DNA from: a virus
Virus record (IMG/VR): IMGVR_UViG_3300006315_000014
Span: 1 to 26,168 of that record
DNA: 26,168 nucleotides
Direction: 5' to 3' (one strand)
Shown: in pieces, positions 2,229 through 17,437 of the stretch
Layout of the letters: every line of letters begins with the position of its first letter
Position numbering within the stretch: position 1 is the first letter of the stretch
Program-made: the position numbers and the translations under genes
Notes under the pieces: generated by a model
What the model was told of the DNA's origin: nothing
The model's database searches: none
The model's input: the letters and a program-made list of their open reading frames with translations, nothing else

Positions 2229-2368
2229 TGTCAAATGAAAATAGTACTATGTATGGATTTTGGTTTTGTGTAATAGTTTTATTACTTAGTGTTGCTTGTT
2301 GGGGAACACCTGATTTAGTCGATGCTTGGATATACTATTTGTCAGATGGATTTTATAAATCATTGTAA
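2228..2368 (+). CDS. 46-residue single-span membrane protein
   Basis: A short gene starting with the ATG that overlaps the gp32 stop (TAATG at 2226-2230), so it is translationally coupled to gp32. It encodes a polar start (MSNENSTMYG), one hydrophobic segment at about residues 11-28 (FWFCVIVLLLSVACW), then GTPDLVDAWIYYLSDG and a short tail. I recall similar tiny proteins with a 'TPDL-DA' segment after gp32 in marine T4-like phages, but cannot verify this. Its stop overlaps by nine bases the 3' end of the convergent tape measure gene. Function unknown. Confidence 0.6.
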   Translation: MSNENSTMYGFWFCVIVLLLSVACWGTPDLVDAWIYYLSDGFYKSL

Positions 2369-4126
2369 TCGAGATGAGGCATCTCCATTGTCTGTTTTGA
2401 TTGATGAACCGCCAATGACAGTAGAACCTGATGTGTTAACTTGACTTGTATTATTAGTTTGAATAATTAATGGTCTGCCAGTAGCAGCGGCTTGAGCTGT
2501 TTGGACTTGTAATTGGGCTAACATTTGACCACTTACAAGTCCTTCTGTTGCAGCAGAGAATTCTTTTAGTTTGGCCATATCAGTAGCACCTAGAAACTTA
2601 TCAAGACTATCTCCTATCTTTTCTAGATTATCACTATCGAAAGCATCAAATGCATTTGCAAGTGCTGTAACTCCCATACCTGCTTGAGATAGTCCCGGCC
2701 CAATCGCGGCGAACTTCTGAAACTTTTCTACGGGGTCTTTATCTCCCCCAATCCAACTAGAGAAGGCATCACCTAATGCAGAGACTGCACCGCCACCCCC
2801 AAACGCCGCTAATCCAATACCTAATTTTTTAATTCCATCACCTACCATACCAAAGTTAGTTGCATCTATTGCACCAAATTTACTAACAGATTCTGCAACA
2901 GATTCTAATCCTCCTCCTTCAACTTTGAGTAGATCTGCTAATTTACCACCAACTCCAAAAACTCCTAATCCTATACCAACTGCTGTCATACCATCACCAA
3001 CCGATTTAAGATTTCCAGGCTCAATGTTAGCAAACTTTAAAACTGAGTTAGCAATTTTTTCAAGTGTTTCTGCGGATGGCATAAATGCACCAGCTATGGC
3101 CGCACCAGCAGAAAAGAGTACAAGTGCACCTGCCATTGCTGTTAATCCGGCAGCAACCGCTAACATATTTCCAGCAGGAAGAGCTGTTAGTCTTTCAACT
3201 CCTTCAACGATTTTATCTATTATTCCTATTATTGCATCACCAATAGTTTTAATAACTTTTGATATACCATCAAATATAGATGTAAGGATTTTATCAACAT
3301 TTTCCATAACGGCTATTATGACATCACCTACCTTTTGAATTATCGCACTAATTTCTTGAAGTGCAATACCAACAGTATCTAAAACTTTTTGAATAGTTGC
3401 ATTGAAGACGGGATCGGTAATAATATCTTTCAGTACTTTAAATATATCTACAACGATTGGATGTAATGCTTCAATTACTATTGCTATTCCTGTAAAGAAA
3501 TCTTTAATAAACGGCCCCATATTTTTGACCATGTTACCAAATCCCTCTAAAACTTTTTGAAGGATAGTTCCAATTGCTTCACCAAGTGCTAGGATTATTC
3601 CAGTAATTATTTTCAATGCTTTACCTTCACCGGCAATCATTTCGAATACTTTAAATGCGGCGGCTAGTCCTGCAGCAAATATTGGAAGTGTAAGGGACAT
3701 AACAGTTACACCTACTAATATCATTGGATTAGCAAAAGCGGCAAGACCTCTTGCAAGACCTTTTAGGAAACCTTCAATACCTTTTCCCATTTTACTCATA
3801 CTTTTGCCCATGGCGCCAACAGGATTCATTATAGCTTTACCCATCCTAGAGAAGAAACCACCAGCCTTTTTTTCTTCTTTTGCTCCATCTGGTATATCAC
3901 CTTCTTCATCCGTACCTTTTATTCTGGCTTGTTCTCTTAAGGCTTCAGCATTTGCTTTGTGGATTTTAGTTTGTAAATTGAATATTTTATTGAGGGCTTT
4001 GAGAGTTTTGTTGGCTACAATAAGATCTTCATCTTGTCCGGCTTTTATATCGGTTGCGTGAGTATCATTCGCAGTCTGATTCGCCGATAATTTATCGATT
4101 ACGTCTTGTAGTGAGGCTGCAGCCAT
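2360..4126 (-). CDS. 29: Tail tape measure / baseplate hub length-determining protein (gp29-like)
   Basis: A 588-residue protein (T4 gp29 has 590). It begins with a charged helical region (1-90), then a Gly/Lys/Met-rich stretch (90-125), several long hydrophobic segments (about 127-160, 171-190, 211-238), amphipathic helices to about 310, and a Gly/Ala-rich repeat region (about 320-500). The tail end is polar (Thr/Ser/Asn). This composition is typical of tape measure proteins, which fill the tail tube, set its length and are ejected with the DNA. Three diverged tandem repeats of 52-55 residues begin near 364, 416 and 471 (KF-x-x-I...VGDG...GIGL...FG-x-GG). It sits directly after the gp26/gp51 chaperone-like pair, the classic tape measure position. 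Start ATG at 4126 follows AAGGA. The gp29 name rests on size, composition and context. Confidence 0.75.
   Translation of the reverse strand: MAAASLQDVIDKLSANQTANDTHATDIKAGQDEDLIVANKTLKALNKIFNLQTKIHKANAEALREQARIKGTDEEGDIPDGAKEEKKAGGFFSRMGKAIMNPVGAMGKSMSKMGKGIEGFLKGLARGLAAFANPMILVGVTVMSLTLPIFAAGLAAAFKVFEMIAGEGKALKIITGIILALGEAIGTILQKVLEGFGNMVKNMGPFIKDFFTGIAIVIEALHPIVVDIFKVLKDIITDPVFNATIQKVLDTVGIALQEISAIIQKVGDVIIAVMENVDKILTSIFDGISKVIKTIGDAIIGIIDKIVEGVERLTALPAGNMLAVAAGLTAMAGALVLFSAGAAIAGAFMPSAETLEKIANSVLKFANIEPGNLKSVGDGMTAVGIGLGVFGVGGKLADLLKVEGGGLESVAESVSKFGAIDATNFGMVGDGIKKLGIGLAAFGGGGAVSALGDAFSSWIGGDKDPVEKFQKFAAIGPGLSQAGMGVTALANAFDAFDSDNLEKIGDSLDKFLGATDMAKLKEFSAATEGLVSGQMLAQLQVQTAQAAATGRPLIIQTNNTSQVNTSGSTVIGGSSIKTDNGDASSRLQ
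2371..2385. terminator. Weak hairpin at the convergent gene junction
   Basis: GAGATG (2371-2376) and CATCTC (2380-2385) form a perfect six-base stem with a three-base loop, just after the rightward stop (2368) and inside the last codons of the leftward gene. No U-run follows directly on either strand, so it is at best a weak terminator and may be a coding coincidence. Confidence 0.25.
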
Positions 4127-4134
4127 TTTATTCC

Positions 4135-4329
4135 TTACTTATATTTTGCGTTTTCGCGTTGGATTCTATCATTCTCTTCTTTAATCCAATTTTGTAATAA
4201 CATTACATATACTTGTCTTTCAAACGGCATCATATTTTCTAATTCCGTTAGACTCCACTTGTGATGCTGAATCATAGCGAAATTTGTTTGAAAATGGTTC
4301 GCCAGGGAATCGTGACTCAGCCCTATCCG
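4135..4329 (-). CDS. 51: gp51-like hub assembly segment, read by -1 frameshift from gp26 (alternative ATG at 4275)
   Basis: A 64-residue frame ending at TAA 4137-4135, nine bases before the tape measure ATG. From ATG 4275 it would encode only 46 residues (MIQHHKWSLTELENMMPFER...), but the protein-like sequence extends upstream of that ATG (IGLSHDSLANHFQTNFA), and there is no Shine-Dalgarno before ATG 4275. In this frame there is no ATG between the upstream TGA (4341-4339) and 4275. The frame joins gp26 exactly through the T-TTT-TTC heptamer at 4335-4329, giving a predicted fusion of 308 residues. The C-terminus is highly charged and helical. The gp51 label (baseplate hub assembly catalyst) comes from recollection of similarly placed short proteins in cyanophages and from context, not from alignment. 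Confidence 0.6.
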   Translation of the reverse strand, partial: RIGLSHDSLANHFQTNFAMIQHHKWSLTELENMMPFERQVYVMLLQNWIKEENDRIQRENAKYK

Positions 4330-5060
4330 AAAAAAGAGTCAACACCCGATAATACTAAAGGTTTTAACTTCTTACACTTAGGACATATCCAATTTATTTC
4401 ATGTTCTAATCTTGGCATTGTTTCGAAGAATTCTCTTATTTTACTAAATTGTCCAGAACTAAGAGATTCAACAAAATCATCTAATTCCTTTTTAGTGGAA
4501 TCTTTTCCTTTGTAAATTTCATCACCATCCCAGATATAATCAATACACTCAGAAATTAATTTAAAAACATTATCAGCAGATATATTTTCCCCCGCTGTAG
4601 CATATTTATTTACTAGGTCGAGATTTGGATATCTTAATTTTAATCCAATATCTTTAGTAATTTTTACTTCAGGAGATCCTTGTTTTGAAGTATCTACCTT
4701 TATATCATCAATATTAATATCTACATCACAAAGATCATCTTCTTCAGATTCTTTACAACATTTAAACTCTTCTGGTCTTGGAACTTTTACTGTTATATTT
4801 TCACCAACAGATTTTCCCCTAAGATGTAAAAAGAAATATTCAATATCAAAAGGTGCAAGGTCTTTAGTGTTTATTTTTCCTTCTGCACATGCTTCAATAA
4901 TATCTACCATCGCTTTAGTCATTGATGTATCAGAACCACTTTCTAATGCCATCAATAAGGCCTTTTCTTCTTTTACGAGAAAAGGTCTAAATTTAACCTT
5001 TTGTCCAGTAGATGGAATTTTCAATTCATAAGTTGGTGTTACCACTTTTGGTAATGCCAT
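4323..5060 (-). CDS. 26: Baseplate hub subunit gp26 (T4 baseplate protein family)
   Basis: A 245-residue member of the T4 gp26 baseplate family. The N-terminal signature YELKIPSTGQKVKFRPFLVK (11-30), followed by EEKALLMALES, is characteristic. The region around 68-80 (LAPFDIEYFFLHL) is also typical. Cysteines at 101, 102 and 111 and a C-terminal pair CPKC (226-229) could form a split zinc site. In T4 gp26 is needed for hub assembly; the position just upstream of the tape measure gene suggests a tail-assembly-chaperone-like role. ATG 5060 has AGGAG upstream on the minus strand, 27 bases after the preceding gene. The end of the gene carries a candidate -1 slippery site leading into the gp51-like frame. 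Confidence 0.85.
   Translation of the reverse strand: MALPKVVTPTYELKIPSTGQKVKFRPFLVKEEKALLMALESGSDTSMTKAMVDIIEACAEGKINTKDLAPFDIEYFFLHLRGKSVGENITVKVPRPEEFKCCKESEEDDLCDVDINIDDIKVDTSKQGSPEVKITKDIGLKLRYPNLDLVNKYATAGENISADNVFKLISECIDYIWDGDEIYKGKDSTKKELDDFVESLSSGQFSKIREFFETMPRLEHEINWICPKCKKLKPLVLSGVDSFFG
4329..4335 (-). promoter_or_regulatory. Candidate -1 programmed frameshift site (T TTT TTC)
   Basis: On the minus strand the last gp26 codons read TCT TTT TTC GGA TAG. The heptamer T-TTT-TTC matches the X-XXY-YYZ rule in the gp26 frame. A -1 slip continues as CGG ATA GGG CTG into the gp51-like frame. That frame is closed by TGA at 4341-4339 and gp26 is closed by TAG at 4325-4323, so any shift must occur in a short window that contains this heptamer. 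A weak downstream stem (AGGG with CCCT) is possible, but no strong stimulatory structure is evident. Confidence 0.65.
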
Positions 5061-5087: not shown

Positions 5088-5669
5088 TTAATTATGTAGT
5101 TCCCATTTTTTGTATACTATATCTACAGTAAAATCTAATAGTTCAGAATTTTCCCATCCTAGTTCTATAGCACTCATTCCTTTAGGCCAAGCATCTACTA
5201 ATTCAACTTTATGTTTAGGCTGTGTCGCTTCACGTTGTGTTCCGTCATAAACTGAAATATTAATACTACCTTTGTACTTATCATAATATTGCATATTATA
5301 ACCTCTTGTATTTTGTATATGCTCTAACCAATTATACCAAAATTTTCTACATTGCCATTTATCTGTTTCTAGAAAGGTAATTGATATACCTTCAGTTGTA
5401 GTTTCATAAGGAACTTCCATAGCATATTTACCGCCATATCTAAAGTTTGTTGTTCCAAAAGTTCTACTAGGAAAACTTACTGTCTTAACGAGAAATTCTA
5501 TATTTGCAGGATCTATTTCATCACTTCCGTCTGCGGCAGTAATAGATGTTGGAGGTGTAACTTCAACATGATATCTATTTCTCTTTGCAAAATCTCCTTT
5601 GGCGCCTACTCGGCTTATAAATTCACTTATTCCGAATTCTGAATATGGTGGATTTCCTGCGCTGGCCAT
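5088..5669 (-). CDS. Tail tube family protein (gp19-like; possibly the gp54 tube initiator)
   Basis: A 193-residue protein with the pattern of the T4 gp19 tail tube family: GDFAKRNRYHVEV near residues 25-37, a 'FLVKTVSFPSR' strand pair (59-69), a central GISITFLETDKWQCRKFWYNW helix region split over 94-114, and the C-terminal signature DAWPKGMSAIELGWENSE followed by a final strand ending KKWE. T4 gp19 ends with a closely similar WP...ELQLDW...YWE pattern. T4-like phages carry several tube-fold proteins (gp19, gp54, gp48). Because this gene lies among hub-assembly genes and not next to a sheath gene, the gp54 initiator role is possible, but the main tube protein cannot be excluded. Its start overlaps the preceding stop (TAATG). 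Confidence 0.78.
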   Translation of the reverse strand: MASAGNPPYSEFGISEFISRVGAKGDFAKRNRYHVEVTPPTSITAADGSDEIDPANIEFLVKTVSFPSRTFGTTNFRYGGKYAMEVPYETTTEGISITFLETDKWQCRKFWYNWLEHIQNTRGYNMQYYDKYKGSINISVYDGTQREATQPKHKVELVDAWPKGMSAIELGWENSELLDFTVDIVYKKWELHN

Positions 5670-10076: not shown

Positions 10077-12107
10077 ATGTCATATTTTATGGGAAAAGAA
10101 GGATTTGTATGGTGGCAAGGAGTTGTCGAAGATCGCCATGATCCTCTTTATCTTGGAAGATGTAAAATTAGAATACTAGGTTGGCATTCAGAAGATAAAA
10201 ATGATCAACCAACAGTTGGGCTGCCGTGGGCGTATCCTGTTGCACCAATTACTTCTGCAAGTCAAACAGGAGTAGGAACATCTCCATTAGGTCCAGTTGA
10301 AGGAACATGGGTTGTTGGATTTTATCGTGATGGTGAGGCAGGACAAGAGCCAATGTTTTTTGGAACACTTGGTGGTATTCCTGAATTAGATGCAAAAGGA
10401 ATTAATAATGATGGAACACCAACAGGAGGACAAGGGTTTCTTGATCCACGAAGAGAACAAGGAGATTTACCTCCAGGTGGAGATGTGGGTCACCCAGAAT
10501 TCGATGATGAAATAGGCCCAAGAGATTTAGCTTATAATCCCGCAAGTGAGTTAGTTCCAAGAGAACCCGCAACTATTATTCATAATTCTAATCCTGATCC
10601 TGAAGAATCTGCAACGTCTGTTCAAGTGGGTTCAATGGGTGCACCCACACCACAAGTATTTACTGCAAATGGTGTATATGTAAGATCTTTAATGGGTCAA
10701 ACTGGATTACAAGCACCAAGACCGGCATTTACAGTAAAGGTTGTAGAACAAGATGTAAGATCAACATTTCCTGATACTGGTATAGCAAATACAAATTTAT
10801 CATCTACAAGACAATTAAATTATTTAAAAGAACCTACTACGAATAGATTGGCTAGAGGTATTCGGGGAAATACAGATTCTAGTGATCCAAAGTCTTCAGG
10901 GATTGTATTTGAAAAAATGCAAAATAGAAAGGCCGGACAATTAGATATTCCTACAGCAGATGGTAGGAATTGGTCTGAACCTAAGATACCGTGGGCAGCA
11001 ATTTATCCATACAATCATGTTCATCAAACAGAAAGTGGACATATTATTGAAATGGATGATACTCCCAATGAAGAAAGATTACATTGGTATCATAGAACAG
11101 GAACATTTACAGAAATACATCCAGTTGGAATTAAAGTTGATAAAATAGTAAACAATTATTATAATATTATTTTAGGTGCAAAATATACACATATTGAAGC
11201 GAGTGATTATACAACAGTTGATGGTCATCAAGAAAATTATGTTATTGGTAATAGGACAGATAGAGTTGATGGTGATTATTCTGTTGCAATAGGTAAAGGT
11301 AGATTTAATGTTGTTAATACAAAAGGAGCAATTAATTTTCAAGCCTCTAAAATGAAATTAACAGCATCGGAATCTCTTGTACTAAGTGCTAATAATGTAA
11401 TAATTGAAAAGAAGTCTTCTTCTGGTTCAGAAATAACAACAGGAGATGAAAAAAAGAAGGTGGGTGGTAAATACACTATTCATAGTGGATCTTTTAGTTT
11501 GAGTTCTCAAGGAAGTGCAGGATTACAAACTGGTGGTGGATTATCATATAATATTACCGATTCAATAAATGAATCAATATTTGGAGTATTACCATCATTA
11601 ACTGGTGATTATGCAAAAAAGACTACGGCTACTCTAGGTAAGATTGGAATGGAATGTACTGATAATTTAGTTTCAGGTGGAATCTTAATGAATTTAGGTC
11701 TTGCGGGTTTAGGGGGAAATATAAAATTGTTACCGCCCGGAGATATAGAATTGAATTCTAATTTAGGAACAAGTGGTATTAAAGGAGAATCATTATTGGG
11801 GAATGTAGCATTTTCTTCTTTAGCGGGATATGCAGAAATGGCTAGTCTATTAGCCACGATGAGATTAGAGAGTTCAGGCGCGGCTACTTTACAAGGATTA
11901 TTGGGTGAGGTAACAGTAAGTTCAGGAGGTAAAGTAAAGGTAGCAGGATTAATTGCTACATTAAAAGAAGTATTAGATGAATTAATAGACATAATGACAG
12001 AACATACTCATCCAACAGGAACAGGGCCATCTGGACCACCAATGCCACCAGCTACTGCTAAATTATCCTTATTGAAATCCTTAAAAGTTAGTGGGAGTTT
12101 TGAATAA
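10077..12107 (+). CDS. 5: Central spike protein gp5 without a lysozyme domain
   Basis: A 676-residue spike protein. Residues 1-105 form the gp5 OB-fold: GVVEDRHDPLYLGRCKIRIL (15-34), then LPWAYPVAPITSAS and LGPVEGTWVVGFYRDGE, ending MFFGTLGGI. A linker of about 200 residues follows, then the VgrG/gp5 needle start (YNHVHQTESGHIIEMDDTPN) and a long beta-helix (about 340-625) with short Gly/Ser-rich strands. T4 gp5 carries a lysozyme between the OB-fold and needle; nothing resembling it is present here. The C-terminus has HTHPTGTGPSGPP (643-655), an HxH motif like the metal-binding tip of P2-type spikes. It would form the trimeric membrane-piercing spike. It begins 11 bases after the hub gene. 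Confidence 0.88.
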   Translation: MSYFMGKEGFVWWQGVVEDRHDPLYLGRCKIRILGWHSEDKNDQPTVGLPWAYPVAPITSASQTGVGTSPLGPVEGTWVVGFYRDGEAGQEPMFFGTLGGIPELDAKGINNDGTPTGGQGFLDPRREQGDLPPGGDVGHPEFDDEIGPRDLAYNPASELVPREPATIIHNSNPDPEESATSVQVGSMGAPTPQVFTANGVYVRSLMGQTGLQAPRPAFTVKVVEQDVRSTFPDTGIANTNLSSTRQLNYLKEPTTNRLARGIRGNTDSSDPKSSGIVFEKMQNRKAGQLDIPTADGRNWSEPKIPWAAIYPYNHVHQTESGHIIEMDDTPNEERLHWYHRTGTFTEIHPVGIKVDKIVNNYYNIILGAKYTHIEASDYTTVDGHQENYVIGNRTDRVDGDYSVAIGKGRFNVVNTKGAINFQASKMKLTASESLVLSANNVIIEKKSSSGSEITTGDEKKKVGGKYTIHSGSFSLSSQGSAGLQTGGGLSYNITDSINESIFGVLPSLTGDYAKKTTATLGKIGMECTDNLVSGGILMNLGLAGLGGNIKLLPPGDIELNSNLGTSGIKGESLLGNVAFSSLAGYAEMASLLATMRLESSGAATLQGLLGEVTVSSGGKVKVAGLIATLKEVLDELIDIMTEHTHPTGTGPSGPPMPPATAKLSLLKSLKVSGSFE

Positions 12108-12108
12108 T

Positions 12109-12582
12109 ATGGCATTAGTTAAAGCAACATTACAGGGTGAATTGATAGCAACGTATGGGGGTCATAGTCCTGATCCAATGAAGCCAGGAAAAGATATAGC
12201 AAAAGCATTTAAGAATTATTTAATGATGGCACAGAATGCGGGTGGATTTCCAGCATCAAATGTAGTAGATGCTCCAACAGGAATGACAATAGGTGGAGTT
12301 TATGCTCAACAATTACCATCTGGTGCAGCAGTAGGAACACAAATAGCATCGGCATTATCAACTATGGCATTGACATTTTTATCTGCAAATCAGATAGGGC
12401 CACCGGCGGTATCACCTTCACATACGCCGGAGTTAATACAATTATATTCAGGACATCAACCTTCAGGTGTAAGTTTTTCGAAGGAGTTGGCAAACATTTT
12501 AGATACATGGACAAAAACATGGGTAGTGAGTGGATTAATTCCAGGCGCTCCACCTGTTCCATTTTCAGGACCTTTATCATAG
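12109..12582 (+). CDS. Small protein of three 48-residue repeats, unknown
   Basis: A 157-residue protein that I do not recognise. ATG 12109 lies one base after the gp5 stop; a GTG at 12091 would add six residues but overlaps gp5 and is less likely. It consists of three gapless repeats with a period of 48: Tyr16/64/112, Pro21/69/117, Ile30/Ile78/Leu126, Ala31/79/127 and Phe34/Leu82/Leu130 align, with copies 1 and 3 the closest (ELIATYGGHSP against ELIQLYSGHQP). Each unit ends in a G-x-x-P...V turn. It has no charge cluster or membrane segment. Position after the spike suggests a baseplate or spike-associated structural protein, possibly forming a symmetric assembly, but this is inference. Confidence 0.75.
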   Translation: MALVKATLQGELIATYGGHSPDPMKPGKDIAKAFKNYLMMAQNAGGFPASNVVDAPTGMTIGGVYAQQLPSGAAVGTQIASALSTMALTFLSANQIGPPAVSPSHTPELIQLYSGHQPSGVSFSKELANILDTWTKTWVVSGLIPGAPPVPFSGPLS

Positions 12583-12589
12583 GAATACA

Positions 12590-15268
12590 ATGGCAGGAGC
12601 AATTGATAAAAAAATAGTTGAAGTGAAAAAGGAGATAATTGATTCTCCTGCAACGCATTTGTCTGCGAGAAATGGGATTCTCAATTCTGTTGCATTAATA
12701 AGAGAATTTTCTGAGAGTAGATTAAATGCACTATGTGAAAAGTTTACAGCTTCTACTTATACTCTTTATCTTCAATTAGAAGATCAGGGTGCAGGTAATA
12801 ATATTCTTTTAGAAGATGGTAATGAATTATTAATGGAAGCAACTATTTTGGATGCTAGTTATTCTCTTCATCAAGTATGTGAAAATCTAGCAGAACAAAG
12901 ATTGGTATGTTGGGGTGCAAGAGACATACGAACTACTTTTAGAAAATTTGATTTACCTTCTTATGAAACAGTAAATGGTGCTTTAGGTCTTAGTGAACCG
13001 AATACATCTTATTTTGGAATTAAAGCCACAGATATTGGAGAAACTTATAGTATTAATTTAACTAGTTTAGAAGGTACAACTCAAACACAAGGTAGTAATA
13101 CTTTCACTACTTATGTTAAAGATTATTATGTAGTTAGATCAAGAATAGATGGAGAGTTAGTAGATATTAATGATGATATGACTCCATATTCTTCACCAAA
13201 TGATGATACCCCTTTTGGTAATGCCGTTGCTTGGGGTCAAGCTACAGTAACAGAAGTGGGAACATGGAATGAGAATTATGCAAAGGCAAATATCGCGGGT
13301 GTATCGACACAAAGTTCAGGAGCATATAATGAATTAGTTACTATGTCATTATTAGATCATTTAGTGGGGGGTACTAATACTTCATATACTCCTGTAGGTC
13401 CTTCTTTTGGTCAAAAGTTTTATTTGAAAAGACACGCGGACTATGTAAACACATTCACTATCACGGGTACAACTACAACGGGTAGTTTAGAGATAACAAA
13501 CGTATCAGATACAGATCTTTCTAAAATTAAATATGGAGATGTTATTAGTGGAACAGGTATTCCAGATGACAATGTATCAATAGCAGCGGTACAAACTGCG
13601 GGTAGTAAAATTAGACTTAGTAATTCAGGAATAGCAACATCAGATGGTATAGTTACCATCACAGTAAATAGTGTTCCATTTGGATATGCAAAAGATGATA
13701 TATTCTGTCAAGTAGAAGTGGTAGGAGAAGGTTTAGTTAAAAATCCAGATTGGAAACCAGTAGGTGATGATGCGGGAGATTATAGTGGATCAGATGCGGG
13801 ACCGGATGATTTATTAAATGCTAATACTTCACAATTTGTAAGTCTTCTTGGATTTTTTGATCCTGACAATGGTAGTTCAAATGCAACGAATGATATAACT
13901 AAGGGCGCAAGAGGTGATTGGGTTTCTTTACAAAAAGAAGTTTCAGGAACTACATATCCTTATAAGGAACGAAATCCTTTTTTCCCAGCAATGGGAGGAA
14001 CAGTTAAAGCTTATGAAGTAGACAATGGTGTAATTGTAGGAACACAACCTACTGGGTTAGGAGAAGATGATATTCCTAGTGGAAGATTTATTAGGCATGA
14101 TTATGAAAGAGCAAATAGTGCAGGTACTATGCCAGAGAACAGGTATTATATTGACCAAGCTGAAAAATTCTATTATGAAGTACCTTGTACTAATATCTCA
14201 TATACAAGTGGAACTAGTGGTGCAATAGGTACTAATCATACTATGCCTAATACTGGAGAGCCTCCTCATACTATGACTAAAACTGGATTAAGTGGTGCTA
14301 TAAGTAGAATACAAGGAACATCAGTTACATGTGATGGTGTTTCAGTTGGTGTGGGTGCTACATCAACAGTACCAGTAGATGAAACTACCACACATCCTTC
14401 TTTAAGTGGATCAGCCGGAGCACCTAGTGTCAATGCAACTATAGGAAATTATTATACACTTGGTGCAAACAATTACATTTATATAAACAGATTACATTAT
14501 GAGTCTGTTACTATTACTTCAGGTACAAATTGGACAGCAACTTTAGGTACAGATACTACTGTATTTCCATGTAGATATAATTTCATACAGAAACACTTAT
14601 ATGAAGCTGGTGGTTCTGGAGATAATTCAATGAATGCTGATGTTCAGTTTGTAAAAGATACAATAAATGATTTACAATCTTTAGCATCTTTTCGTGATCC
14701 AATTATTGATATAAACACTGCACAAGCAGGTGGAAGTGGTATAAGTGATGTTGCTTTTGATACTTATATTCAAGCAGAACCTTTAGGGGATTTGGCAACA
14801 TTGACTGCTGCAACAGAAACTTTTCGTACTTCTTGGAATCACAGTAATAATACCAGAACAGGGACTAATAATGGTGGGAGTAATCTTGGTGTAACTGTAT
14901 TTATGGCAAATACTGAATGGGCCGCTTTTCATACTGAAATATCTACATTTGGTACTAACTGTTCAAAACGTGCCGCAGAAATTGATACACGTATTGGTGT
15001 ACCTACACGTTCAGGAACACCATCAACATCTTATAAGCAATACCCCGCTGTTTATGTGTCAGCAGTACCAGCAGCAAATACTACTGGTGGAGTTGTTCCT
15101 TATGGTAGAGCAATTTATGACAGTTGTAATTATCTATTAGGTAAGACACTTAAATTGGGAGTACAATTAATACAAGATATTCAAGGTTTAACTGATTTGG
15201 TAGATCTGGTTAAAAAGGCTAGAAACAAATATGAAATTTATAATGGTAGAGCGAAGGAGTATAGCTGA
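12590..15268 (+). CDS. Large virion structural protein, unknown (892 aa)
   Basis: An 892-residue secreted-free, beta-rich protein, likely tail or baseplate. N-terminal 1-55 is helical; 59-85 (LYLQLEDQGAGN, then NILLEDGNELLMEAT) is a module shared with the giant gene downstream. Residues about 285-360 are a compact Thr/Gly-rich beta domain (ITGTTTTGSLEITNVSDTDL, then GDVISGTGIPDDN) with the look of an inserted Ig-like module. The middle is Gly/Ser/Thr-rich; the C-terminal 200 residues are more helical and end in a charged helix. Such proteins follow gp5 in marine T4-like phages and are commonly called structural, but I cannot name it. ATG 12590 has AGGA upstream; the stop overlaps the next ATG (ATGATGG). 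Confidence 0.8.
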   Translation: MAGAIDKKIVEVKKEIIDSPATHLSARNGILNSVALIREFSESRLNALCEKFTASTYTLYLQLEDQGAGNNILLEDGNELLMEATILDASYSLHQVCENLAEQRLVCWGARDIRTTFRKFDLPSYETVNGALGLSEPNTSYFGIKATDIGETYSINLTSLEGTTQTQGSNTFTTYVKDYYVVRSRIDGELVDINDDMTPYSSPNDDTPFGNAVAWGQATVTEVGTWNENYAKANIAGVSTQSSGAYNELVTMSLLDHLVGGTNTSYTPVGPSFGQKFYLKRHADYVNTFTITGTTTTGSLEITNVSDTDLSKIKYGDVISGTGIPDDNVSIAAVQTAGSKIRLSNSGIATSDGIVTITVNSVPFGYAKDDIFCQVEVVGEGLVKNPDWKPVGDDAGDYSGSDAGPDDLLNANTSQFVSLLGFFDPDNGSSNATNDITKGARGDWVSLQKEVSGTTYPYKERNPFFPAMGGTVKAYEVDNGVIVGTQPTGLGEDDIPSGRFIRHDYERANSAGTMPENRYYIDQAEKFYYEVPCTNISYTSGTSGAIGTNHTMPNTGEPPHTMTKTGLSGAISRIQGTSVTCDGVSVGVGATSTVPVDETTTHPSLSGSAGAPSVNATIGNYYTLGANNYIYINRLHYESVTITSGTNWTATLGTDTTVFPCRYNFIQKHLYEAGGSGDNSMNADVQFVKDTINDLQSLASFRDPIIDINTAQAGGSGISDVAFDTYIQAEPLGDLATLTAATETFRTSWNHSNNTRTGTNNGGSNLGVTVFMANTEWAAFHTEISTFGTNCSKRAAEIDTRIGVPTRSGTPSTSYKQYPAVYVSAVPAANTTGGVVPYGRAIYDSCNYLLGKTLKLGVQLIQDIQGLTDLVDLVKKARNKYEIYNGRAKEYS
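12764..12844 (+). repeat. EDG module copy in the 892-residue protein
   Basis: These 27 codons (residues 59-85 of the 892-residue protein) align without gaps to 23967-24047 in the giant gene, with 19 of 27 residues identical (LED-Q, GN, ILLEDG, LLME). This indicates a module shared between two structural genes about 11 kb apart. Confidence 0.75.
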
Positions 15269-15453
15269 TGGCAGAACAAGAACATAAATGGAAAGAAGCA
15301 GAATTAAGAAGAGATGACATTAAGAAGTTATTAGAGAATACTAAAAAACTTGCTGAAATGTATTCAGAAGTTCTTAATCTAAAAAAGTCTGGTTGGGAAA
15401 ATGTTTTAAGGGCAAGAGCTAAGAGAGAAGAAAAGGAAAAACAAAATGGCTGA
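15268..15453 (+). CDS. Small charged helical (coiled-coil) protein, 61 aa
   Basis: A 61-residue protein composed almost entirely of Lys, Glu, Arg, Leu and Ala, predicted to be one or two long amphipathic helices (KWKEAELRRDDIKKLLENTK, then LAEMYSEVLNLKK). It has a strong Shine-Dalgarno (AAGGAG at 15254-15259). The start overlaps the previous stop by one base and its end overlaps the next start by eight bases (ATGGCTGA). The tight coupling on both sides makes a genuine gene likely. It could be a small scaffold or partner for the flanking structural proteins; function unknown. Confidence 0.65.
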   Translation: MAEQEHKWKEAELRRDDIKKLLENTKKLAEMYSEVLNLKKSGWENVLRARAKREEKEKQNG

Positions 15454-17437
15454 ATTTGAAGCATTATTAACGGCGAAGGCCGAATGGAAACCCCATCAAA
15501 TTGCAAAGGCGGGAGATATTTCTGCTTTAGCATCTGCAGCTACAAATCTTGCTGAAATAGTAAAGTCTAGTCTTGAACTTGCTAGAAATGGAATGGAAGT
15601 TGTTAAACTCTTAGCGGCATTACAAAATATTAATCCTATTTTAGTTGCATTAGATAAATTAGCAGATGAAGTATTAAAACAAATCCATGATTTAAAAGAG
15701 GCCGGATATTGGTACTTATATGTTGATCCATATTTTAAAGGAAATGTAACAGGAACACATCCCTTTGATTATGGATTTGAACAGTTAAGAAATGAAGCCG
15801 GTAAACGTTATTGGCAAATAAAGAACGATTCTGGTAATTGGGAAGATACTACAACCAAACCTGAAATGATAGATTTAGATCAAAAAAAGGCTAGACCAAA
15901 ATTAGTTACACCAAGAAAATTAATTGCGGGTGGTTATAATTGGTTTGATCCCTTACCTGATCCACTTGAGGGTCAAAGTAAATTTCCTCAATTTAGTGTA
16001 AAAAATGTAATTAATGAATTTGTGAAGGCGTTTGATGATGAGGGTGATGTTCCCAGATATAGAAAAAATGCTAAAGATTCTGATTTACCAAAAAAGGATG
16101 ATATATCAAAAGGAATGGATGATTCTGCAGCTTCAGTAGTATATGATATTGATGGTAATCCATTTAGAGGATGGGACCCCGCTGAAGATTTTGGATTAGA
16201 ATTATTTGATATGGGAAAAAGAACCGCAGAACAATCACGTTGGCCTCTAGATTATGAAGCATCAAGAAAACCTATTAATACTAAAGTTTCAATAGGTAAA
16301 CCTAATATTTTAGGAAATACAGAATTTGATGGTGGATCTGGAGCAATCGCAATTATAATTGCCGCAGATAACTTTGATAAATTTGCATCAGTCTTTAATG
16401 AATTTTCGAAAATGTTTTCTGATATTCCCGAATTTTCAGCCGATCAGGGTCAAAATTTACTAAACAAATTAAAAGAAATTATTACCCCAAATGATGTAAA
16501 AGTTAGTTTAACTCAAGTTGATACTAAGTATGAAAAATTTGTAGCTGGTGATATTATAAGTGGAAAACGATATGGTAGTCTTGGAGAAGTAAGATCTGTC
16601 AATTCTTCTGCTACAACCGCCACATCTATGAAGGGGCAGAAAGTAATAAAAGTAATTGATGATCTTGGAGAACCACTTAAAGATAAAGAAGGTGATATAA
16701 TTGAGGTACTTGAAGAAATAGATTTAAATCCAGATGAACGATGGGTGGATATGGAAATAATGGTGAAGCCTATGAGGGGGGTTGATGGATATAACCCGTG
16801 GACTCCAGGCGATACAGTTTTAGAGATGGAAAAAAGAGGAAAGTTTGGAAACTCAGAAGCAACAACCGCCGAAACTGGAATTGATTATTATGATAATTAT
16901 GTTATGGTGGGAGCAGAGACTGTCACCTTACCTAAAAATTTAAGAGTATATCCAAAGATAGGAAAAGTTTTAGTTGAAACATTACAAGTACTTCCAGATT
17001 CTACTCCTCCCGATTTTGATGGAATACAAATTAAAGATATTGTTCCTGGTTGGGGAGAATTTTTTCAAGAGTTAGAAAACTTTGTAAAACAAATAAAAGG
17101 AATGATAATAGATTCTACCGGATTTATTCAAGAGATGATTAATATGTTGGCACAGATTGAAGATTTTCTAGAACATTTAATTAAACTTATTGATAAATTT
17201 TTGGAATTTTTTAGAATAACATTACCATCATCTGGAGTATTCGCACTTTATATTCCAAATCAAAACGGAGGAAATGAGGGTTTAAAGAAGGAAATCAAAA
17301 ATGCCACAGGTATTCCAGATATGGGTTACGCATCAGGAATATTATTTATTGGTACAGAAGGAGATAAACTCATTGCAGGAGGGGGTAGTAAAAATCCAAT
17401 AGATTTGTTAGCATTAGTGCTAGGACTACTTAACTAA
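15446..17437 (+). CDS. Virion structural protein upstream of gp25, unknown (663 aa)
   Basis: A 663-residue protein of unknown family. Residues 1-85 are Ala/Leu-rich helices (ISALASAATNLAEIVKSSLE, then VVKLLAALQN). The middle (about 85-530) is mixed and Asp/Pro/Gly-rich, with a Tyr/Trp block GYWYLYVDPYFKGN (86-99). About 535-600 is a long amphipathic helical segment (FIQEMINMLAQIEDFLEHLI, then KLIDKFLEFF), and the end is hydrophobic (IDLLALVLGLLN). No signal peptide. Its constant position between spike-side genes and gp25 in related phages, as far as I recall, suggests a baseplate component. It overlaps the preceding gene by eight bases and has AAGGA upstream. Confidence 0.78.
   Translation: MAEFEALLTAKAEWKPHQIAKAGDISALASAATNLAEIVKSSLELARNGMEVVKLLAALQNINPILVALDKLADEVLKQIHDLKEAGYWYLYVDPYFKGNVTGTHPFDYGFEQLRNEAGKRYWQIKNDSGNWEDTTTKPEMIDLDQKKARPKLVTPRKLIAGGYNWFDPLPDPLEGQSKFPQFSVKNVINEFVKAFDDEGDVPRYRKNAKDSDLPKKDDISKGMDDSAASVVYDIDGNPFRGWDPAEDFGLELFDMGKRTAEQSRWPLDYEASRKPINTKVSIGKPNILGNTEFDGGSGAIAIIIAADNFDKFASVFNEFSKMFSDIPEFSADQGQNLLNKLKEIITPNDVKVSLTQVDTKYEKFVAGDIISGKRYGSLGEVRSVNSSATTATSMKGQKVIKVIDDLGEPLKDKEGDIIEVLEEIDLNPDERWVDMEIMVKPMRGVDGYNPWTPGDTVLEMEKRGKFGNSEATTAETGIDYYDNYVMVGAETVTLPKNLRVYPKIGKVLVETLQVLPDSTPPDFDGIQIKDIVPGWGEFFQELENFVKQIKGMIIDSTGFIQEMINMLAQIEDFLEHLIKLIDKFLEFFRITLPSSGVFALYIPNQNGGNEGLKKEIKNATGIPDMGYASGILFIGTEGDKLIAGGGSKNPIDLLALVLGLLN

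Follow-up and report, generated by a model that had tools for sequence, protein, structure and literature searches.

In phage lambda a short tail assembly chaperone and its -1 extended form, the G/GT pair, are encoded just 5' of the tape measure gene, with GGGAAAG as the slippery heptamer. Such frameshifting is reportedly conserved in several groups of T4-like phages, and the group of T4 itself is said to use genes 26 and 51. In 2016 the G-T frameshift was described as widely conserved 'except T4' (PMC5009743), and two later papers, both citing Vladimirov, Gautam & Davidson (2022, Virology 566:9–15), refer to poly-T -1 slip sites in the tail assembly chaperone (TAC) genes, TAC-N, of T4-like phages (PMC12846349) and to T4-like phages with separate short and long chaperone genes (PRFect, PMC10885494). 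In the TAC locus of Vandenendeviridae and Andersonviridae, TAC-N likewise closes with a poly-T -1 site and the extension is mis-annotated as a separate open reading frame (ORF), although these are other phage families and the motif is GTTTTT (PMC12846349). Here we analyse the gp26–gp51 junction in IMG/VR virus record IMGVR_UViG_3300006315_000014 (positions 1 to 26,168, a stretch of 26,168 nucleotides (nt) that we call the window), which belongs to an uncultivated marine clade. A -1 programmed frameshift very probably joins gp26 to gp51 in this phage, giving a short and a long tail chaperone.

The first-pass annotation, made from the window's sequence, knew of no description of this arrangement in the group; as far as PMC10885494 and PMC12846349 relay it, the assignment of gp26 and gp51 as chaperones, and apparently the poly-T slip sites, had been reported for T4-like phages in 2022, and the concept is therefore already known. 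Relative to the published work as represented in those sources, the present analysis adds the uncultivated marine clade and possibly the stimulators of the slip.

On the minus strand gp26 (4323..5060; 245 codons, 245 residues) is the short form, TAC-N, and matches Pfam T4_baseplate (PF12322, E 1.7e-61), PHROG_150 (E 6.8e-68) and, in a profile comparison, T4 gp26 (E 3e-17). It ends TCT TTT TTC GGA TAG, with the zero-frame stop at 4323..4325 and the heptamer T_TTT_TTC at 4335–4329 in the X_XXY_YYZ phase of a -1 slip. A TGA at 4341–4339 shuts the -1 frame directly 5' of the heptamer, and the two frames can be joined only within the 13 nt 4338–4326, which include the heptamer. The -1 frame is open over 4138..4338, and its post-slip codons encode the gp51 extension (TAC-C, 64 residues), which matches PHROG_634, 'baseplate hub assembly catalyst' (E 2.3e-27), and is conserved from the slip site onward in 33 aligned members; the predicted slip product has 244 + 64 = 308 residues. 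Re-reading of the coordinates thus bore out the in-phase heptamer, the 64-codon frame and the joining window of about 13 bases noted at first pass, whereas the TAA ending the -1 frame (4137–4135) lies 8 nt, rather than nine, before the ATG (4126) of the next gene.

In the mechanism we propose, the majority of ribosomes would terminate at the TAG and release the 245-residue form, and a minority would slip by -1 on U_UUU_UUC to make the 308-residue form carrying a helical gp51 extension, helped by an internal Shine-Dalgarno-like motif lying some 7–8 nt ahead of the heptamer and by a stem-loop that begins ~7 nt past it. By analogy with lambda gpG and gpGT, the role of the short form would be to coat the product of the neighbouring, probable tape measure gene, and that of the extension to recruit tail-tube subunits. 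The two systems would share the short chaperone, its -1 extended form and the place just 5' of the tape measure gene, in the window a probable one; the window's chaperone differs in being longer (245 residues), in its heptamer, and apparently in belonging to another sequence family. The equivalence with G/GT and the two product lengths put forward at first pass are supported by the conserved site, phase, extension and constraint described below.

Conservation of the slip site and of the -1 frame

The junction was compared in 94 relatives, comprising 76 IMG/VR loci (31–100% gp26 identity) and 18 named phages (cyanophages, pelagiphages, a methylophage and phages of Ochrobactrum, Vibrio, Cronobacter, Aeromonas, Desulfovibrio and Rhizobium), which were picked on gp26 or gp51 similarity, the slip site not being a criterion. 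An in-phase T_TTT_TTN is present at the junction in all 94 (N being T in 48, C in 44 and G in 2), compared to 4 of 7442 other codon slots in 32 divergent gp26 genes, and its presence there is thus not due to chance. The two G variants, locus L070 and Rhizobium phage AF3 (L093), have T_TTT_TTG at the corresponding site, so that gp26 reads Leu there instead of its second Phe.

The heptamer lies at -10 from the gp26 stop in 49 loci, at -7 in 41 and at -31 in four. These four are phage Mosig (L085) and loci L072–L074, in which the spacing to the gp51 motif is unaltered despite the 31-nt offset; the gp26 stop can therefore drift, but the slip site cannot. From the heptamer to the PxER motif of gp51 the distance is exactly 36 codons in 88/94 loci, including those where the gp26 stop moves, so it is the heptamer that sets the zero of the ruler, rather than a start codon or the gp26 stop. 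In 52 of the 94 the -1 frame is stopped at the heptamer or no more than 3 nt 5' of it, and between the closing stop and the heptamer that frame contains GTG or TTG in seven loci and ATG in none.

Constraint at synonymous sites is evident among 53 representatives sharing <90% identity. Every one has TTT as the first Phe codon of the site, against 62.6% of the Phe codons elsewhere in these genes, and T as the last base of the preceding codon, against 61.6% for those residues at other places. The naive probability is ~1e-11 for each constraint, and with 21 representatives <50% identical it is 5e-6 for the first Phe codon and 5e-5 for the preceding codon; these probabilities are not fully independent, the 94 loci being related, and this counts against the frameshift along with the points gathered below. 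In the 16 codons that precede the first ATG, variable columns in the window clade number 3/16, 5/16 and 13/16 at -1-frame positions 1, 2 and 3, a concentration from which we conclude that this stretch is protein-coding in the -1 frame. The alignment of homologous junctions suggested by the first-pass annotation thus shows the heptamer, the -1 phase and the peptide ahead of the ATG to be conserved and the synonymous sites to be frozen. A separate gp51 cistron with its own conserved ATG and Shine-Dalgarno sequence was seen in no relative, and loss of the heptamer or its phase was seen only in T4, which has separate genes.

The T4 homologues of the window's short and predicted long forms are encoded by two separate and divergent genes, 26 and 51. 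T4 gp26 matches the short form, and the alignment of T4 gp51 with the virtual fusion runs from one end to the other (232 columns, E 4e-10); T4 therefore keeps its short and long chaperones in two genes, which agrees with the account of Vladimirov et al. given by PRFect, and has no frameshift site, gene 26 reading GAG TTC TTT GAG at the position of the heptamer. T4 gp51, long catalogued as essential for hub assembly but of unknown function (PMC3004832), would thereby gain a place in the tape-measure chaperone scheme.

Predicted stimulators of the slip

Internal Shine-Dalgarno sequences and stem-loops are known stimulators of -1 frameshifting, for example in dnaX and insertion sequence (IS) elements (PMC5009743). 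Escherichia coli dnaX has the same three parts, an internal Shine-Dalgarno sequence, a slippery heptamer and a downstream stem-loop, but is a cellular gene in which the heptamer is A_AAA_AAG and the shift shortens the product. Across the family, pairing with the anti-Shine-Dalgarno sequence peaks for 8-mers starting ~15 nt 5' of the heptamer (mean -6.0 vs 0.05 kcal/mol background), and the motif beats randomised synonymous codons (z -5.7 and -6.7). The window has the G-rich UCGGGUG at the position of this peak (4349–4343, minus strand), 7 nt 5' of the heptamer.

On the 3' side, the 78 nt following the site fold better than synonymous randomisations in the 53 representatives (mean z -2.09, p 2e-14), the same comparison giving z -0.15 to -0.54 for four control stretches of gp26. 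The stem-loop predicted in the window mRNA (4321–4266, minus strand; helices 4321–4313/4274–4266 and 4304–4298/4281–4275) begins 7 nt 3' of the heptamer and has a minimum free energy of -18.2 kcal/mol (z -2.4 vs dinucleotide shuffles, -3.7 vs the synonymous null), and 98.5% of cells are paired across 17 window-clade sequences. Loci L027 and L028 depart from this clade stem-loop in that its inner helix is disrupted, and another hairpin is predicted for them (AGTTTGG with CCAAACT or similar). We predict from these sequence comparisons that both the Shine-Dalgarno-like motif and the stem-loop act as stimulators here, and both may have gone undescribed so far. We give an even chance to the proposal that T4-like phages other than the T4 subgroup have at their gp26–gp51 junction a complete three-part signal of Shine-Dalgarno-like motif, poly-U heptamer and stem-loop, that this signal is ancestral to the whole group, and that a duplication of the chaperone into short and long genes took its place in T4.

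Weighing the frameshift against other origins of the split

If gp51 were instead a separate short cistron, it would have to be translated by re-initiation at an internal ATG, such as that at 4275, after termination of gp26. This is how public records often present it, a free ORF of ~44–47 residues being annotated in Mosig, HTVC008M and Melnitz, but no start is conserved: the Met wanders between codons 20 and 21, some phages have another residue in its stead, and in Desulfovibrio phage 7757 neither ATG nor GTG nor TTG occurs anywhere before PxER. A Shine-Dalgarno sequence precedes the ATG of codon 20 or 21 in none of the loci, and none was found ahead of ATG 4275 in the window, as had been noted at first pass; that this ATG is the only one of the segment was mistaken, as it is the first and two more follow in ENMMPF. 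Conservation of the protein extends 5' of the internal ATG as far as the heptamer, so that a start at 4275 would, as then suspected, cut off protein-like sequence, and a frozen heptamer with frozen spacing is also at odds with re-initiation. An internal start was rejected for want of a conserved start codon and Shine-Dalgarno sequence, and we regard it as very improbable. Slightly less probable again is that the polymerase rather than the ribosome joins the frames by slipping on the T run, as bacterial polymerases are known to do on runs of 9 A or T (PMC5009743). A run of 8 T occurs in 37/94 loci, but 46/94 have 6 T, and in the window clade the 6 T invariably run into a C (17/17 distinct sequences), where a synonymous TTT could have stood; the Shine-Dalgarno-like motif and downstream structure are, moreover, ribosomal stimulators. 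A homopolymer beside a change of frame is also the classic pattern of an assembly error, yet the architecture is identical in 94 records including finished isolate genomes, and purifying selection acts on both sides of the junction; assembly error and gene decay are thereby already refuted, and their probability is negligible.

The -1 frameshift is by far the best explanation of the sequence, which itself shows the site, its phase and the extension, as well as their conservation, the constraint on synonymous codons and the relationship to T4 gp26 and gp51. Several points weigh against it. U_UUU_UUU is less shift-prone than A_AAA_AAG in E. coli (PMC5009743). UCGGGUG in the window is itself weak, being no stronger than its synonymous alternatives. 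Covariation in the stem-loop is also weak, with one compensated pair (G-C, G-U, A-U) and 23/500 shuffles as good, so that the stem-loop rests mainly on the folding energy relative to the synonymous null. The HK97 tail assembly chaperone gp13 (2ob9) is a weak Foldseek match to the gp26 model (probability 0.41, E 2.7), and this likeness of predicted fold is only suggestive. That both products exist, their ratio and their role with the tape measure are deductions from the genome sequence.

Annotation of gp51, predicted folds and neighbouring genes

Hundreds of marine phage genomes contain the short gp51 ORF called 'baseplate hub assembly catalyst', which most likely encodes the C-terminal part of a frameshifted chaperone and not a free protein, and public annotations truncate this ORF at an internal Met or omit it. 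The extension is wholly unannotated in the public records of S-WAM1 (L083), Cronobacter phage S13 (L089), Aeromonas phage AS-szw (L090) and S-CAM1 (L095). A Pfam search of the gp51 segment of the window gave nothing meaningful, but the segment also aligns with the last part of profile PHROG_150 (E 2.5e-4), past the stretch covered by gp26, which indicates that this profile includes an extension of the gp51 kind.

The AlphaFold model of gp26 (predicted local distance difference test, pLDDT, 84.8) has matches among viral models not only to gp26 proteins but also to the gp51 of T4-like phages of Campylobacter and Acinetobacter; there was no significant match among solved structures, of which 2ob9 was one of few to reach an appreciable probability, and the gp26 profile found no match among the sequences of solved structures. 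The gp51 extension, folded separately from gp26, is predicted to be helical, the first helix beginning at the slip site (pLDDT 76).

Three plus-strand ORFs of the baseplate region (12091–12582, 12590–15268 and 15446–17437) had no PHROG match at E 1e-3. The gene downstream of gp51 (2360..4126, minus strand; 588 residues) probably encodes the tape measure protein, with matches to PHROG families for tail length tape measure proteins (best E 1.7e-7) and to one for a tail protein (E 1.9e-9); it has no detectable similarity to T4 gp29, and the assignment therefore stands on the PHROG profiles. Between gp51 and the next long ORF, the probable tape measure gene, Melnitz (L084), Mosig, Rhizobium phage AF3 and HTVC008M (L094) have ~360–420 nt with small ORFs, a stretch that is absent from the window clade. 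Upstream of gp26 lies a gene for a protein of the tail-tube fold, of gp19/gp54 type (5088..5669, minus strand; PHROG_45 tail tube, E 1.3e-32; Pfam Phage_T4_gp19, E 1.5e-7). It may be a gp54-type initiator instead of the major tube protein, and gp54 is annotated at the corresponding position in Mosig, S13 and HTVC008M.
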